The notes below the pieces were generated by a model. That model was not told the origin of the DNA and ran no database searches. It saw only the letters and a list, made by a program, of their open reading frames with translations. Made by a program: the position numbers and the translations under genes. From the NCBI RefSeq assembly GCF_004102725.1, contig NZ_LHQS01000004.1:62001-126000 (forward strand): a stretch of DNA of 64,000 nucleotides. Direction: 5' to 3'. This DNA comes from Methanoculleus taiwanensis (GTDB taxonomy: Archaea; Halobacteriota; Methanomicrobia; Methanomicrobiales; Methanoculleaceae). Positions 37,081 through 47,263 of this stretch are shown one piece after another. Position 1 is the stretch's first letter; every line of letters begins with the position of its first letter.

Positions 37081-37707
37081 ATGGCACAGGAACAGATACA
37101 GATGCAGAAGAAGTACGAACTGCCGCCGCTCCCCTATGAGGCAAACGCCCTCGAACCGTATATATCGCAGGAGCAGCTCTCCCTGCACCACGACAAACAC
37201 CACCAGGCCTACGTGAAAGGTGCCAATGCGGATCTCGAGAAGATCGAGCAGGCACGGCGGGATAACGCCAGTATCGATGAGAAGGCGATTCTCAAAGAAC
37301 TCTCGTTCAACATCGGCGGGCATATCCTCCACTCGCTCTTCTGGCCAACGATGGCGCCGGCAGGCAAAGGAGGCGGAACGCCGGGCGGGGCTCTCGCAGA
37401 CGCGCTCGACCGGGAGTTCGGCAGCTTCGAACGATTTAAATCAGAGTTTTCGCAGGCAGCATCCAGCGTCGAAGGCTCGGGATGGGCAGCACTCGCGATC
37501 GACGAGATAACCGGTCGGCCGATGGTCATGCAGATCGAAAAACACAGCAACAACGTCTACCCCTCAGCCCCGATCATCATGGTGCTGGACATGTGGGAGC
37601 ATGCCTACTACGTCGACTACCGGAACAGCCGGGCAGACTTTATCGATGCATTCTGGAACGTCGTCAACTGGGACGAAGTGAACCGCCGCATCGAGCAGCG
37701 GGTATAG
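37081..37707 (+). CDS. sod: iron/manganese superoxide dismutase
   Basis: Disproportionates superoxide in the cytoplasm. The 208-residue protein has the metal ligands in their usual places: His in [11 protein letters not shown] (residue 40s), His in [10 protein letters not shown], and Asp and His in [11 protein letters not shown], typical of Fe/Mn-SOD. A short N-terminal extension ([15 protein letters not shown]) precedes the fold. GAGGTGAT is a strong Shine-Dalgarno with 6-base spacing. Its presence suggests that this presumed anaerobe meets oxygen intermittently. A divergent surface-protein gene faces it. Confidence 0.97.
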
Positions 37708-40976: not shown

Positions 40977-41203
40977 CTGCATCCCGGATCCGGTGTATTC
41001 CAGGGTTTGTGTCCCGCCGGTGCAGATCCGATTCACATCTTTTTTACAGGCACCCACTCCTCGCAACAAAGCATTCACCGACCTGCGAGTGAATGCCGGC
41101 CATTTCACCCCCTTCAGGTCCCGGGCACGGGCAGACGACACCCGTGCCACACCGATCGGTAAGGCACAATGCTTATATTCCGTGCCAACGCCCATTCGGC
41201 AAC

Positions 41204-43570
41204 ATGTATAAAAATGCACAGATACTAATTTTCATCGCCTTAATGGCGATGATCGTCCCGCTGGGCGCTTCCGCTCAGGAAAACGAAACAACGAACGCCA
41301 CCGGGAGCATTCCTCCTGAGGTTCTCGAGTACGGAGGGGACTGGCCGCTGCCGAATTATGACTATGCCAACACGCGAGCGACAACAAACGCATCGATAGA
41401 TGCCGGTAACGTCAACGATCTCGGGGTCGCCTGGGCGTTCGCCATTCCGGCCACGGGGGCGTTTGGTGCTGCCTCAAGTAACCCGATCGTGATGGGCGAC
41501 ACCGTCTACTTCCAGGATCTCAACGCCAGTGTCTTTGCCCTCGACCTTGAGAATGGGTCGGAGATCTGGGCGCAGCGGTACGACAACGCATCGGTTCTCG
41601 GCCCGAACGGCCCTGCTGTCGGGTGGGGGAAGGTCTTCGTCGCAAAGGATCCGTTCAATATGGCAGCCCTGAACGCAACGACCGGTGAAGAGATCTGGGC
41701 GACCAGAATCGTATTCAAGGTCAACGAGACCGGCACGCTCATCGGCGAAGGGATCGATATCCAGCCGTCCGTCTACGGCGGTCAGGTGCTCACCTCGACG
41801 GTGCCCGGAACCGGCGATGTCTTCTACCAGCCGGGAAGTATCGGCGTCATCTACGCCCTCGACCAGGAAACCGGCGAGGTTGCCTGGAACTTCAGCACCG
41901 TCGACTCGCCTGACCTCTGGGGCAATCCCGACGTGAACAGCGGCGGCGGTGCCTGGTACTCGCCCGCCGTCGATACCGAACGGAACGTAACCTACTGGGG
42001 CGTCGGCAACCCGGCACCGTGGCCGGGCACAGAAGAGTGGCCGAACGGAACGAGCAGACCAGGGCCGAACCTCTACACCAACAGCATCGTAGCCCTCGGC
42101 ACCGATAACGGAAGCCTGGAGTGGTACGCTCAAGCCCTTCCGCATGACCTCTTCGATTACGATCTCCAGATCCCGCCGATCCTCGCGACCGCGAACATCA
42201 CCGGCGAAGAGCAGGATATCGTCATCGGCGCCGGAAAGATGGGACGCGTCTATGCCTTCAACCGCGACAGCGGAGAACGGCTCTGGGTCGCCGTGGTCGG
42301 CGAGCACCAGAACGACCAGCTCGCGGGCATTCCGCCGAACGAGACGGTGACCGTCTACCCCGGATACTTCGGCGGGGTCGAGACGCCCATGGCCTATGCC
42401 GACGGGAGCGCCTATGTACCGAGCCTCGACCTCTCCTCAAACTACACCTCCACCCAGGCAACCGGCCAGGAATCGTTCAACGAATCCGTCGGCAGGCTAA
42501 CCGCTCTCGAGGTGGATACGGGTAAGGTGCTCTGGGATAAGGAGTTCGACTCCCCGAACTTCGGCGGTGCTACGATCGTCAACGATCTCGTATTCACGGC
42601 GACGTACGACGGCGTCATCTACGCCTTCGACCGGATGAGCGGTGAGGAGGTCTGGAACTGGACGGCACCCGCAGGCATCAACGCCTGGCCCGCCGTCGTG
42701 AACGACACTATCGTCTGGCCGGCAGGTTCCGGTGAACAGCCCGTGCTCGTCGCGCTTCGGCTGGGGGCGGAAGGTGGCAACGTTACGATGCCGGGGAACA
42801 TAACCGGTAGCCAGACCGGAAACATGACCGCTGGCAATCAGACGATGGATAACGTAACCGGGAACCAGACTACGAACAACATGACCGGGGTGCCGAACGT
42901 GACCATCACCATGCCGGAGAACGGATCAACCGTCTCCGCCGGCAATGTGACGGTTGACGTCAACATCACGAACTTCAGCCTAGTCGACAACCTCGGAGGG
43001 GCACCCGTCGCCGGTGAAGGACACATCCACTATTACCTCGACGTCGCCCCGCCGACCGAGCAGGGCAAACCCGCCGTCCCGGAGAACGGCTCCTACGCCG
43101 TGAGCACGAACACCTCCTACACCTGGGAGAACGTCACGCCAGGGATGCACAACCTCTCCGTCCAGCTCGTCAACAACGATCATACGCCGCTCGATCCACC
43201 GGTCACGGCCATGGTCAACGTGACTGCCGAAGGAGAGGCAGGGAATGCCACACCCACAGAGACAGCGGCGCCGGAGCAGCCGGAGACCGCGACAGTCGAT
43301 CTGGTGGCTGAAAACATTGCCTTCGATATGAATACCATCACCGTACCCGCCGGTGCGAACGTGACGGTAAACTTCACAAACCTCGACACCGCTCCGCATA
43401 ATCTGGCGGTATATACCACTTCAGCCGCAGACGACCCGCTCTTCGTCGGCGAGATCATCAACCAGGGGAACATAACCTACACATTCACCGCGCCGGAGGA
43501 ACCGGGAACCTACTTCTTCCGCTGCGATGTACACCCCGTCGCCATGACCGGCGATTTCATCGTGCAGTGA
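41204..43570 (+). CDS. secreted PQQ-dehydrogenase-like propeller with cupredoxin domain
   Basis: A 788-residue exported protein. Residues 1-25 are a signal peptide (ILIFIALMAMIVPLGASA). Residues 45-520 form an eight-blade beta-propeller with the quinoprotein signatures GVGNPAPW (N269, the usual metal ligand) and HDLFDYD (D318 catalytic; D320 two residues on). A linker near 524-565 is packed with N-glycosylation sequons. Then comes a GEGHIHYYLD domain resembling DUF4399, and a C-terminal cupredoxin domain with apparent blue-copper ligands H732, C774, H777 and M781. TATA CTTATATT lies about 28 bases upstream, so translation is probably leaderless. It is likely a PQQ-dependent oxidoreductase at the cell surface, substrate unknown. 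Confidence 0.87.
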   Translation: MYKNAQILIFIALMAMIVPLGASAQENETTNATGSIPPEVLEYGGDWPLPNYDYANTRATTNASIDAGNVNDLGVAWAFAIPATGAFGAASSNPIVMGDTVYFQDLNASVFALDLENGSEIWAQRYDNASVLGPNGPAVGWGKVFVAKDPFNMAALNATTGEEIWATRIVFKVNETGTLIGEGIDIQPSVYGGQVLTSTVPGTGDVFYQPGSIGVIYALDQETGEVAWNFSTVDSPDLWGNPDVNSGGGAWYSPAVDTERNVTYWGVGNPAPWPGTEEWPNGTSRPGPNLYTNSIVALGTDNGSLEWYAQALPHDLFDYDLQIPPILATANITGEEQDIVIGAGKMGRVYAFNRDSGERLWVAVVGEHQNDQLAGIPPNETVTVYPGYFGGVETPMAYADGSAYVPSLDLSSNYTSTQATGQESFNESVGRLTALEVDTGKVLWDKEFDSPNFGGATIVNDLVFTATYDGVIYAFDRMSGEEVWNWTAPAGINAWPAVVNDTIVWPAGSGEQPVLVALRLGAEGGNVTMPGNITGSQTGNMTAGNQTMDNVTGNQTTNNMTGVPNVTITMPENGSTVSAGNVTVDVNITNFSLVDNLGGAPVAGEGHIHYYLDVAPPTEQGKPAVPENGSYAVSTNTSYTWENVTPGMHNLSVQLVNNDHTPLDPPVTAMVNVTAEGEAGNATPTETAAPEQPETATVDLVAENIAFDMNTITVPAGANVTVNFTNLDTAPHNLAVYTTSAADDPLFVGEIINQGNITYTFTAPEEPGTYFFRCDVHPVAMTGDFIVQ

Positions 43571-45110: not shown

Positions 45111-45932
45111 ATGGGCGGGAGGCCTCTAGGCGGAGACGAGGAAGGAGCAACAATAGTTCTCCTGGAAGATACGGATTCACTGCAGGAACTCTCCGAATAT
45201 CTCGACGTCCTCTCAAGCACGACCCGGCTTAAGATCCTCAAGCTCATCGAGCAGAAACCAAAAGATATCCGCCGGATCGCATCGGAGATCCAGTCGAGTT
45301 ACGAAAACACCAAAAAGCACATGGATAAACTCCTCAGCATCGGTGTCGTCCGCAAGGAGGCGGGACTTTCGCGGGAAACCTCGAGGGGCATTCACCCGGT
45401 CTGGAAGTACTCGCTCGTGCCCGGAACGATGGAGGCGATCGTGAGGAACCTCGGCCTCTTCTCCAACATGAAACTTACCGTCACCGATGCCGATCTCACC
45501 GTCAGGCTCGCCGCCGTACGCGGCAAGGTCTCGGAGGAACTCACAAACCCCTCACCGACCATCACGCTCCTCGGCGGGCCTGACGACGGAATGTCCTTCC
45601 TCCTTGAAGGCAGCCGGATGCCGGTCGGCAGGGGCGAGAGGGGCGCACCGACGGCATACGTTCCCGGCTCCGCCATCACGCTCTCCGAGGAGTACGGTGC
45701 CGTGACCCGCATCTCAAAACCGCATGCCGTCTTCATTCTGCGGGACAGAATCTGGCACCTCGAGGACTGCGGGAGTACCGGCGGTACATTTATCAACGGT
45801 ACCGCACTCGTTCCTCACCGCAGATACATACTCAAAGACGGCGATCTCATAGAGTGTGCAAAAGGCGTCCACGGAGCATCCTTCGTCTTCGTCGGCGGAA
45901 CCGAATCGGGACAGGGGGAGGAGAGAACCTGA
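45111..45932 (+). CDS. winged-helix/FHA-domain protein
   Basis: A 273-residue protein joining an N-terminal winged helix (YLDVLSSTTRLKILKLIEQK, IASEIQSSYENTKKHMDKLL) to a C-terminal FHA domain (MPVGRGERG, VTRISKPHAVFILRD, LEDCGSTGGTFINGT). FHA domains bind phosphothreonine, so it could be a DNA-binding regulator controlled by phosphorylation. AGGAG sits 5 bases upstream of the ATG. Its stop overlaps the CTG of the kinase gene in CTGA, which suggests they are made together. Confidence 0.9.
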   Translation: MGGRPLGGDEEGATIVLLEDTDSLQELSEYLDVLSSTTRLKILKLIEQKPKDIRRIASEIQSSYENTKKHMDKLLSIGVVRKEAGLSRETSRGIHPVWKYSLVPGTMEAIVRNLGLFSNMKLTVTDADLTVRLAAVRGKVSEELTNPSPTITLLGGPDDGMSFLLEGSRMPVGRGERGAPTAYVPGSAITLSEEYGAVTRISKPHAVFILRDRIWHLEDCGSTGGTFINGTALVPHRRYILKDGDLIECAKGVHGASFVFVGGTESGQGEERT

Positions 45933-47263
45933 CCCGCAGCGGCGGCAACCCGGCACGCACCCAGGCATGCCGGTGCGTCCTTGCGCTTCTCCTTCTCCTG
46001 GCGCTCCTTGCCGCGCCCTGCACCGCCGATGCGCCGGGCACGGACGCAGAGTCACTCCGTACTGCCGACGACGATACCGTTCAGGTCGAGGAGAGCGCGA
46101 CCCCGGCAAAGGGCAACTCCAAACTGAAGGATACACCCGGTAGCAACGGGGCAGGGAATGGAAAGGGAGTAACTCCGGATAGCCCGGCATCCAGGCAGTC
46201 CGAGACCCCCACACCGGGCAGCCCGACGGTGCAGCCTGCAGGCGGTACCGTGTCGGTTTTTGCAGCAGAACAGAACCGGGGTACACCGGAGCGGGGAAGC
46301 GCGGTCGATGCACCCCTCCTCCTGCTTGCAGGCATAGCTCTCCTCGCGGCCCTTGCCGTCTTCGTATGGTATTCCCGACAGGAACAGAACAGGGAGCTGC
46401 CGGAAACGGGCACCGCGGCCACCATACTGGCCGAACCCGGGGTGCCGGAGACTCCGGCCGGGCTGCAGAACAGATACAGCCGTATGGAATCTGTCGGGAG
46501 AGGCGGCCTCGGCAGGGTCTTTCGGGCAGAGCGGAAAAGCGACGGTGCGATCGTCGCCGTGAAGATACCCATCGCCTTTGACGAGGCCACGGGGAGATCG
46601 TTCCTGAAAGAGATGCGATTCTGGGAAGAGCTCACCCACCCGAATATCGTCGAGGTCTATTCGGTCAACATCCTTCCCGTTCCGTACGTCGAGATGGAGT
46701 ACGTCGCAGGAACCCTTGAAGCGCTGAGAAAACCAATCTCCCCGGAAGCATGCCGATCTATAGCCATGGGGATTGCAGAAGGGCTTTCATACGCTCACGG
46801 CAGGGGGGTCATCCACCGGGATATCAAGCCTCATAACATTCTGATCGGAGACGACGGGGCGGCGAAGATCACCGACTGGGGGATGGGAACCGCCCTTGCC
46901 GGGAGCCGTGCCACGAGCAGCCCCGGGTTCTCTCTCGTCTATGCCGCCCCGGAACAGATCGCTCCGGGGCGTTTTGGCAGAACCGACGAGCGGACGGACA
47001 TCTATCAGCTCGGGGTCGTCCTGTACGAACTCCTGACCGGCACGGTTCCCTTCCCGGGAGAGGATATCGCCGCGTTCAGCACTGCCCTTCTCGAGACCGA
47101 ACCGGTGCCGCCGTCGGTGATCCGTCCCGGTATCGAGCCCTTCGATCCAATCATCCGGCGATGCCTCGCAAAAAACCCCGACCACAGGTATCAGACCGCC
47201 GCCGATCTGGCAGCCGATCTTGCCGCCCTCCCTCTCGGGGAGCAGGGCGAGGAGAGAGCATAA
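45929..47263 (+). CDS. transmembrane Ser/Thr protein kinase, apparent CTG start
   Basis: A 444-residue kinase. Residues 15-31 look like an exported signal or first span (CVLALLLLLALLAAP), residues 35-125 a Pro/Thr/Ser-rich linker, and residues 128-149 a membrane span. The kinase domain runs from about 185: GRGGLGRVF (P-loop), VAVKIP (lysine), HRDIKPHN (296-303) and DWG (316-318, in place of DFG), then APEQ. No ATG/GTG/TTG lies between 45854 and the domain except 45854 itself; CTG 45929 has GGGGGAGGAGAG just upstream and overlaps the FHA stop as CTGA, so I prefer it. ATG 45854 would overlap FHA by 79 bases and adds an arginine-rich tail. A partner of the FHA protein. Confidence 0.82.
   Translation: MTRSGGNPARTQACRCVLALLLLLALLAAPCTADAPGTDAESLRTADDDTVQVEESATPAKGNSKLKDTPGSNGAGNGKGVTPDSPASRQSETPTPGSPTVQPAGGTVSVFAAEQNRGTPERGSAVDAPLLLLAGIALLAALAVFVWYSRQEQNRELPETGTAATILAEPGVPETPAGLQNRYSRMESVGRGGLGRVFRAERKSDGAIVAVKIPIAFDEATGRSFLKEMRFWEELTHPNIVEVYSVNILPVPYVEMEYVAGTLEALRKPISPEACRSIAMGIAEGLSYAHGRGVIHRDIKPHNILIGDDGAAKITDWGMGTALAGSRATSSPGFSLVYAAPEQIAPGRFGRTDERTDIYQLGVVLYELLTGTVPFPGEDIAAFSTALLETEPVPPSVIRPGIEPFDPIIRRCLAKNPDHRYQTAADLAADLAALPLGEQGEERA

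Follow-up and report, generated by a model that had tools for sequence, protein, structure and literature searches.

A propeller related to PQQ alcohol dehydrogenases and fused to a predicted type-1 copper domain in the methanogen Methanoculleus taiwanensis

The PQQ alcohol dehydrogenases (TIGR03075, PF01011), which include MxaF, XoxF, PedH and the quinohaemoprotein alcohol dehydrogenases, are eight-bladed propellers. In the bacterial enzymes, an Asn and a Glu serve as metal ligands and an Asp is catalytic, while a Cys pair and an Arg are located at the PQQ pocket. The 788-residue protein described here is encoded in a 64,000-nucleotide stretch of the genome of Methanoculleus taiwanensis (the window, in what follows, is this whole stretch). 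It has eight blades and equivalents of the metal-binding Asn, the catalytic Asp, a Lys and the stacking Trp, and shares a second Asp with XoxF and PedH. Unlike these enzymes, it lacks the Glu ligand, the vicinal Cys pair, the Arg and accompanying pqqC and pqqE genes, scores far under the family cut-off and carries a copper domain where they have a cytochrome c. Another PQQ-dehydrogenase-like family, Acido-empty-quinoprotein group A (TIGR04528), is cofactor-less by its name; the methanogen protein is not a member, since its 167.8 bits fall short of the cut-off of 650.

By analogy, the nearest experimental precedent for electron transfer out of a PQQ domain within one polypeptide is the quinohaemoprotein pyranose dehydrogenase of Coprinopsis cinerea, CcPDH, in which haem b in a fused domain receives electrons from the PQQ domain (PMC4332668). 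In CcPDH as in cellobiose dehydrogenase, an extracellular dehydrogenase is wired to a fused electron-transfer domain, an arrangement that the 788-residue protein resembles, and the DOMON domain of its Methanothrix relatives is a further likeness to both. However, the PQQ domain of CcPDH belongs to another family (AA12) and its haem-b domain is N-terminal, whereas the copper domain considered here is C-terminal.

In archaea, a study of heterotrophic marine Thaumarchaeota describes PQQ-type dehydrogenases without the Cys pair, some of them with a D-X-D motif, for which blue-copper acceptors have been proposed (PMC7300363). To judge from these members, the Cys pair is not universal in the family. 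The likeness to the methanogen protein (archaeal origin, no Cys pair, D-X-D in some) has a limit, as the Thaumarchaeota are aerobes for which a PQQ synthase is reported, unlike the present host, and no copper fusion appears in the accessible part of that source. Closer to this host, two other methanogens, Methanosarcina and Methanothrix, are reported to have surface "quinoproteins" (PMC6315138, PMC10470525). SqpA (Mthe_0878) and the copper-domain surface proteins of Methanothrix, likened here by their descriptions, combine a methanogen surface location with PQQ-type propellers or copper domains, but they are reported as separate proteins (PMC10470525). A role of methanogen surface "quinoproteins" and copper proteins in interspecies electron transfer has already been proposed; what is new here is the fusion. 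No published PQQ-cupredoxin fusion from a methanogen was found in the literature covered, which mostly excludes subscription papers.

Gene boundaries, domain order and the copper domain

The host is a methanogen and its genome (G000) contains mcrA. The frame encoding the protein is open from its ATG to its stop codon, and the domains and residues that a first-pass annotation had read from the DNA are all in place (Table 1). A longer in-frame ORF begins at 41093, but the orthologue in the sister Methanoculleus sp. FWC-SCC1 (L004 in G001; same genus, 79% identity across its full length) aligns from the Met encoded by the ATG at 41204. Compared with this orthologue, the gene is under purifying selection, as dN/dS is about 0.13 for the propeller and about 0.17 for the cupredoxin. 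Pfam matches have E-values of 2.1e-48 (PQQ propeller, PF01011), 1.2e-26 (PQQ_2) and 1.7e-11 (Cupredoxin_1), while that of DUF4399 (5e-4) is under its cut-off. The linker described earlier as rich in sequons contains seven of them in 41 residues, versus 1.8 after shuffling, and the whole protein has 39. Read from the sequence, the N terminus resembles a signal peptide and the protein is probably exported and glycosylated.

Table 1. Features of the 788-residue protein, flanking genes and related loci (plain numbers are window positions; L-numbered loci carry their own coordinates)
Feature	Position	Strand	Basis or remark
Whole gene: exported propeller - DUF4399 - cupredoxin protein (predicted), 788 aa	41204..43570	+	ORF, Pfam, full-length FWC-SCC1 orthologue
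Signal-peptide-like N terminus, residues 1-25, without lipobox Cys	41204..41278	+	sequence; model helix 2-20
Eight-bladed PQQ-dehydrogenase-type propeller, residues 36-522	41309..42769	+	Pfam, model, fold match
Segment 196-212 (STVPGTGDVFYQPG) in place of the GGEYG/GGEFG Glu-ligand motif	41789..41839	+	alignments
N269 (GVGNPAP), metal-ligand Asn equivalent	42008..42010	+	invariant 28/28
D318-Y319-D320 (D-X-D, in FDYD), catalytic-Asp equivalent and second Asp	42155..42163	+	both Asp invariant 28/28
Sequon-rich linker, residues 523-563	42770..42892	+	sequon count
DUF4399-type domain, residues 564-675, motifs GEGHIHYYLD and NNDHTPL	42893..43228	+	Pfam, model
Type-1 cupredoxin domain, residues 693-788	43280..43567	+	Pfam, model, fold match
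H732, predicted copper ligand	43397..43399	+	48/48 cupredoxins; aligns with plastocyanin ligand
C774, H777, M781 (CDVHPVAM), predicted copper ligands	43523..43546	+	48/48 cupredoxins; align with plastocyanin ligands
DUF3821 protein, 1092 aa	33595-36873	-	probably a surface protein
Fe/Mn superoxide dismutase gene	37081-37707	+
FHA-domain protein gene overlapping Ser/Thr protein-kinase gene	45111-47263	+
Separate cupredoxin with lipobox-like leader	L037:9270-9788 (G000 contig C2, near 613,900)	+	64% identity to the cupredoxin domain
GSDH (glucose/sorbosone dehydrogenase-type)-cupredoxin fusion	L031:5181-7355	-
GSDH-cupredoxin fusion	L032:10540-12636	+
GSDH-cupredoxin fusion	L042:4680-7136	-
Second-family PQQ propeller fused to cupredoxin	L091:1-2007	+

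The C-terminal domain, modelled with a deeper alignment, reached a pLDDT of 93 and was matched best by auracyanin A (Z 14.6, rmsd 1.4 over 94 residues), followed by azurins. The four proposed ligands are invariant in all 48 cupredoxins gathered and stand in register with those of plastocyanin; the Cys among them is the sole Cys of the protein. By sequence and by predicted fold, this domain is an ordinary type-1 cupredoxin that would bind copper, as had been suggested from its His-Cys-His-Met ligands. It shares fold and ligands with auracyanin, azurin, plastocyanin and amicyanin; unlike them, it sits behind a propeller and a DUF4399-type domain, and its ligand loop is C-x2-H-x3-M. The same genome encodes a stand-alone cupredoxin, 64% identical to this domain, whose leader is lipobox-like and which is a possible membrane-anchored partner.

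The cofactor pocket and the supply of PQQ

Structural modelling and a search for homologues had been suggested at the outset. The AlphaFold2 model of the propeller (mean pLDDT 80) is closest to the quinohaemoprotein alcohol dehydrogenase 1yiq (Z 41.2, rmsd 2.5, 481 residues aligned) and to XoxF (6dam, Z 41.1); across the PQQ alcohol dehydrogenases (these two, 1kv9 and PedH), Z values are mostly 39-41. The cofactor-free propellers BamB and YxaL score 33-37 (BamB about 35), and the matches to PQQ enzymes cover more residues than theirs. A viral fold library returned weak propeller matches only.

Residue equivalences were taken from sequence alignment, with haloarchaeal-type proteins (L063-L066) and bacterial ones from Alloyangia and Paraburkholderia as the canonical comparison set. 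None of N269, D318, D320, K345, W251 and R285 varies among the 21 close relatives, and all except R285 are unchanged in seven more distant ones too (28/28 in total). N269 and D318/D320 align with the canonical relatives, and the D-X-D motif with PedH and the haloarchaeal proteins. An Asp two residues after the catalytic one, here D320, had been noted as a mark of lanthanide-using XoxF that sugar dehydrogenases can share. The second Asp is indeed there, but by itself it is not a lanthanide marker, since D-X-D is found throughout the clade and in every one of the 30 sequences in the comparison, which include bacterial and haloarchaeal ones.

Other canonical features are missing. The Glu metal ligand (GGEYG/GGEFG), which the first-pass annotation had rightly found not obvious, is absent across the methanogen propeller clade in the alignment and replaced by a longer VPGxGDxFY segment, while haloarchaeal-type and bacterial relatives keep it. 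Within this segment, D205 is conserved in 20 of 21 close relatives and, from the alignment, could substitute for the lost Glu; the model is of low confidence in the loops around 203-206 and 286-288, with pLDDT below 50 at 203-206. Aligned with canonical relatives, the clade also lacks the vicinal pair of Cys residues and the subsequent Arg, at whose position stands an invariant Asn (N135). Cys pair and Arg are kept in the haloarchaeal and most bacterial relatives, the Arg position being His in the Paraburkholderia protein. E393, in place of a PQQ-pocket Asn, was considered as a further clade-specific change and dropped because the canonical-looking Alloyangia protein also has Glu there (GGVEW). 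In the tree, the methanogen propellers form a clade well apart from the canonical sequences, a placement to be read with caution given the long branches.

The TIGR03075 score of the protein is 179.8 bits, under the cut-off of 480. It may work like a PQQ alcohol dehydrogenase but does not qualify as a member of that family: it lacks the Glu ligand as well as the Cys pair and Arg, and it falls far short of the curated score. On the best reading, the propeller arose within the PQQ alcohol-dehydrogenase family and its cofactor pocket was remodelled into a candidate site that is possibly non-PQQ. Of the earlier description as PQQ-dehydrogenase-like, the fold, the Asn and the D-X-D motif hold; the Glu, the vicinal disulfide, the Arg and PQQ synthesis do not accompany them.

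The absence of PQQ synthesis genes, noted earlier, extends to the whole genome as far as pqqC (TIGR02111) and pqqE (TIGR02109, at cut-off) are concerned: neither was found in the genomes of the host, FWC-SCC1 or Methanothrix harundinacea 6Ac, while the positive control, Sinorhizobium meliloti pSymB, scored 428 and 610 bits. PqqE-like radical SAM matches near some propeller loci were set aside, as all lie under the pqqE cut-off. Uptake of PQQ from outside is possible and compatible with this absence. Methanosarcina barkeri is likewise without PQQ synthesis, and it has been suggested that its "PQQ proteins" carry another cofactor (PMC6315138). Canonical-looking PQQ dehydrogenases with Cys pair, Arg, Glu and D-X-D occur in other archaeal genomes (L063-L066, in G211, G357, G194 and G415), in which pqqC had no match in a search whose control was silent.

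Distribution and exchange of partner domains

The survey covered the phylum of the host, plus plasmids. The propeller was found in 13 of 61 order-level genomes; across the phylum, 15 of 393 genomes carry it with an identity of at least 53%, five of them from one further family. Methanothrix harundinacea 6Ac, of the Methanotrichaceae, is one of these five (G250). The homologue search yielded relatives in two methanogen orders, among them fusions to a cupredoxin or to a DOMON domain. An oxidoreductase of this kind had been called unusual for a strict anaerobe, which is too strong, since the propeller is present in many Methanomicrobiales and Methanothrix genomes and surface quinoproteins are reported in Methanosarcina and Methanothrix.

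In the Methanomicrobiales, the C-terminal module of the propeller is a cupredoxin, while in three Methanothrix-family genomes a DOMON domain is fused instead. Other relatives end in a fasciclin domain and a cupredoxin (L030) or in DUF4399 alone (L060), or lack a fused module and have a separate gene for a DUF4399-cupredoxin or a cupredoxin adjoining (L057-L059). Cupredoxin, DOMON, DUF4399 alone and the unfused state all occur on a single propeller clade (tree support 100/99). A PDB search with the Methanothrix DOMON domain gave no meaningful match, so that haem binding, suggested by a conserved Met/His and by the family name, is putative. The swap of a copper for a haem-type partner, fused or adjacent, nevertheless suggests electron transfer and is the best evidence for it.

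In Methanoculleus, the same cupredoxin is also joined to GSDH-type six-bladed propellers that keep their catalytic-His and Arg-Asn motifs, and in one locus (L040) such a propeller is partnered by a fasciclin domain rather than a cupredoxin. A second PQQ-type propeller family of methanogens (L091, L061, L062, L067; about 30% identity) has an Asp at the Glu-ligand position; one member, from Methanoculleus, carries that cupredoxin as a fusion (L091) and a cupredoxin gene adjoins another (L067).

Electron transfer and its alternatives

We give an even chance to the reading in which the 788-residue protein is an exported modular oxidoreductase whose remodelled propeller site is wired to copper. The site would hold either PQQ that is scavenged and differently coordinated or some other redox group, and electrons would pass between it and the built-in type-1 copper. 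The cupredoxin would then hand electrons to, or take them from, other surface copper proteins, the next carrier being, for example, the lipobox-like cupredoxin of the same genome or a similar protein. In its favour, the closest folds are PQQ alcohol dehydrogenases and six residues (N269, D318, D320, K345, W251 and R285) are invariant among close relatives; the well-modelled cupredoxin with its invariant ligands, the module exchange, the fusions of other propellers to the same cupredoxin, the CcPDH precedent and the lipobox-like cupredoxin of the host count for it as well. Against it stand the missing Glu ligand, vicinal disulfide, Arg and PQQ synthesis genes in the sequences searched. In addition, the fusion looks specific but may be less so, given how common DUF4399, cupredoxin and fasciclin domains are as surface modules in these genomes; DOMON domains can bind sugars rather than haem; and for the metabolism of a methanogen, the potentials of known cupredoxins (150 to 680 mV, as cited in PMC6315138) are high. 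The first-pass annotation had the propeller pass electrons to its own copper domain. Domain exchange supports that part; the missing pocket features and PQQ synthesis genes do not support a strict identity as a PQQ alcohol dehydrogenase.

The main rival, which we regard as somewhat unlikely, is a cofactor-free surface protein whose propeller would act as a scaffold, for binding or for structure, like those of BamB and YxaL, and whose cupredoxin copper would serve sequestration or defence against copper or oxidative stress. The clade-wide loss of Glu, Cys pair and Arg, the absent PQQ synthesis, the fold shared with BamB and YxaL, the recurrence of cupredoxin, DUF4399 and fasciclin domains as surface modules and a superoxide dismutase gene 3.5 kb upstream would all fit it. 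Yet a plain scaffold needs no invariant N269, D318, D320, K345, W251 and R285, and both the exchange with DOMON and the GSDH-cupredoxin fusions indicate redox coupling. Alternatively, the retained D-X-D, Asn and Lys, together with nearest fold matches that are PQQ enzymes of both calcium and lanthanide types, could reflect a genuine PQQ dehydrogenase, with calcium or a lanthanide, that scavenges PQQ from neighbouring bacteria and oxidizes alcohols or sugars outside the cell. The marine Thaumarchaeota enzymes without Cys pair and with D-X-D (PMC7300363) are in line with it, and haloarchaeal-type genomes with canonical enzymes also gave no pqqC match, although the control was silent there. This remains quite improbable, as an insertion replaces the Glu ligand, the Arg is lost, neither pqqC nor pqqE was found in the genome and the family score is far under its cut-off.

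Electrons could also flow inwards, with copper and propeller accepting them from syntrophic partners or minerals, a role already proposed for the surface quinoproteins of Methanosarcina and Methanothrix. Genes for PQQ-domain and cupredoxin proteins are upregulated in Methanosarcina barkeri during direct interspecies electron transfer (PMC6315138), Methanothrix expresses SqpA and copper-domain proteins (PMC10470525), and the propeller itself is present in Methanothrix harundinacea 6Ac. Even so, known cupredoxin potentials are too positive and there is no known entry route into a Methanomicrobiales cell, which makes electron uptake a very remote prospect.

Returning to the modular oxidoreductase, the relatives in two methanogen orders that swap copper for a haem-type part suggest an unstudied extracellular electron-handling protein. 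This family, with one conserved propeller and a copper or haem-type partner domain, is a concrete candidate for the way in which methanogens lacking surface multihaem cytochromes exchange electrons with their surroundings. With three canonical pocket features and the PQQ genes missing, PQQ binding is questionable, and it becomes testable whether the "PQQ proteins" invoked for electron transfer in methanogens contain PQQ in the first place. A bolder proposal, which we consider rather doubtful, is a methanogen family of extracellular oxidoreductases that kept the PQQ-dehydrogenase fold but gave up PQQ for another redox group or metal centre at the Asn and Asp-X-Asp, with swappable copper or haem modules. 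If true, it would provide a cytochrome-c-independent electron route outside methanogen cells.

Beyond the adjacent genes, neighbourhoods were read with a simple ORF heuristic. In the window, the Fe/Mn superoxide dismutase gene found in this methanogen lies about 3.5 kb upstream of the 788-residue gene, with the DUF3821 gene on the opposite strand; downstream is the overlapping FHA and kinase pair. The Methanoculleus propeller/cupredoxin cluster adjoins a 640-residue Prismane/CO-dehydrogenase family gene and a DUF488 gene (L028:13406-15316, L031:10371-10715).
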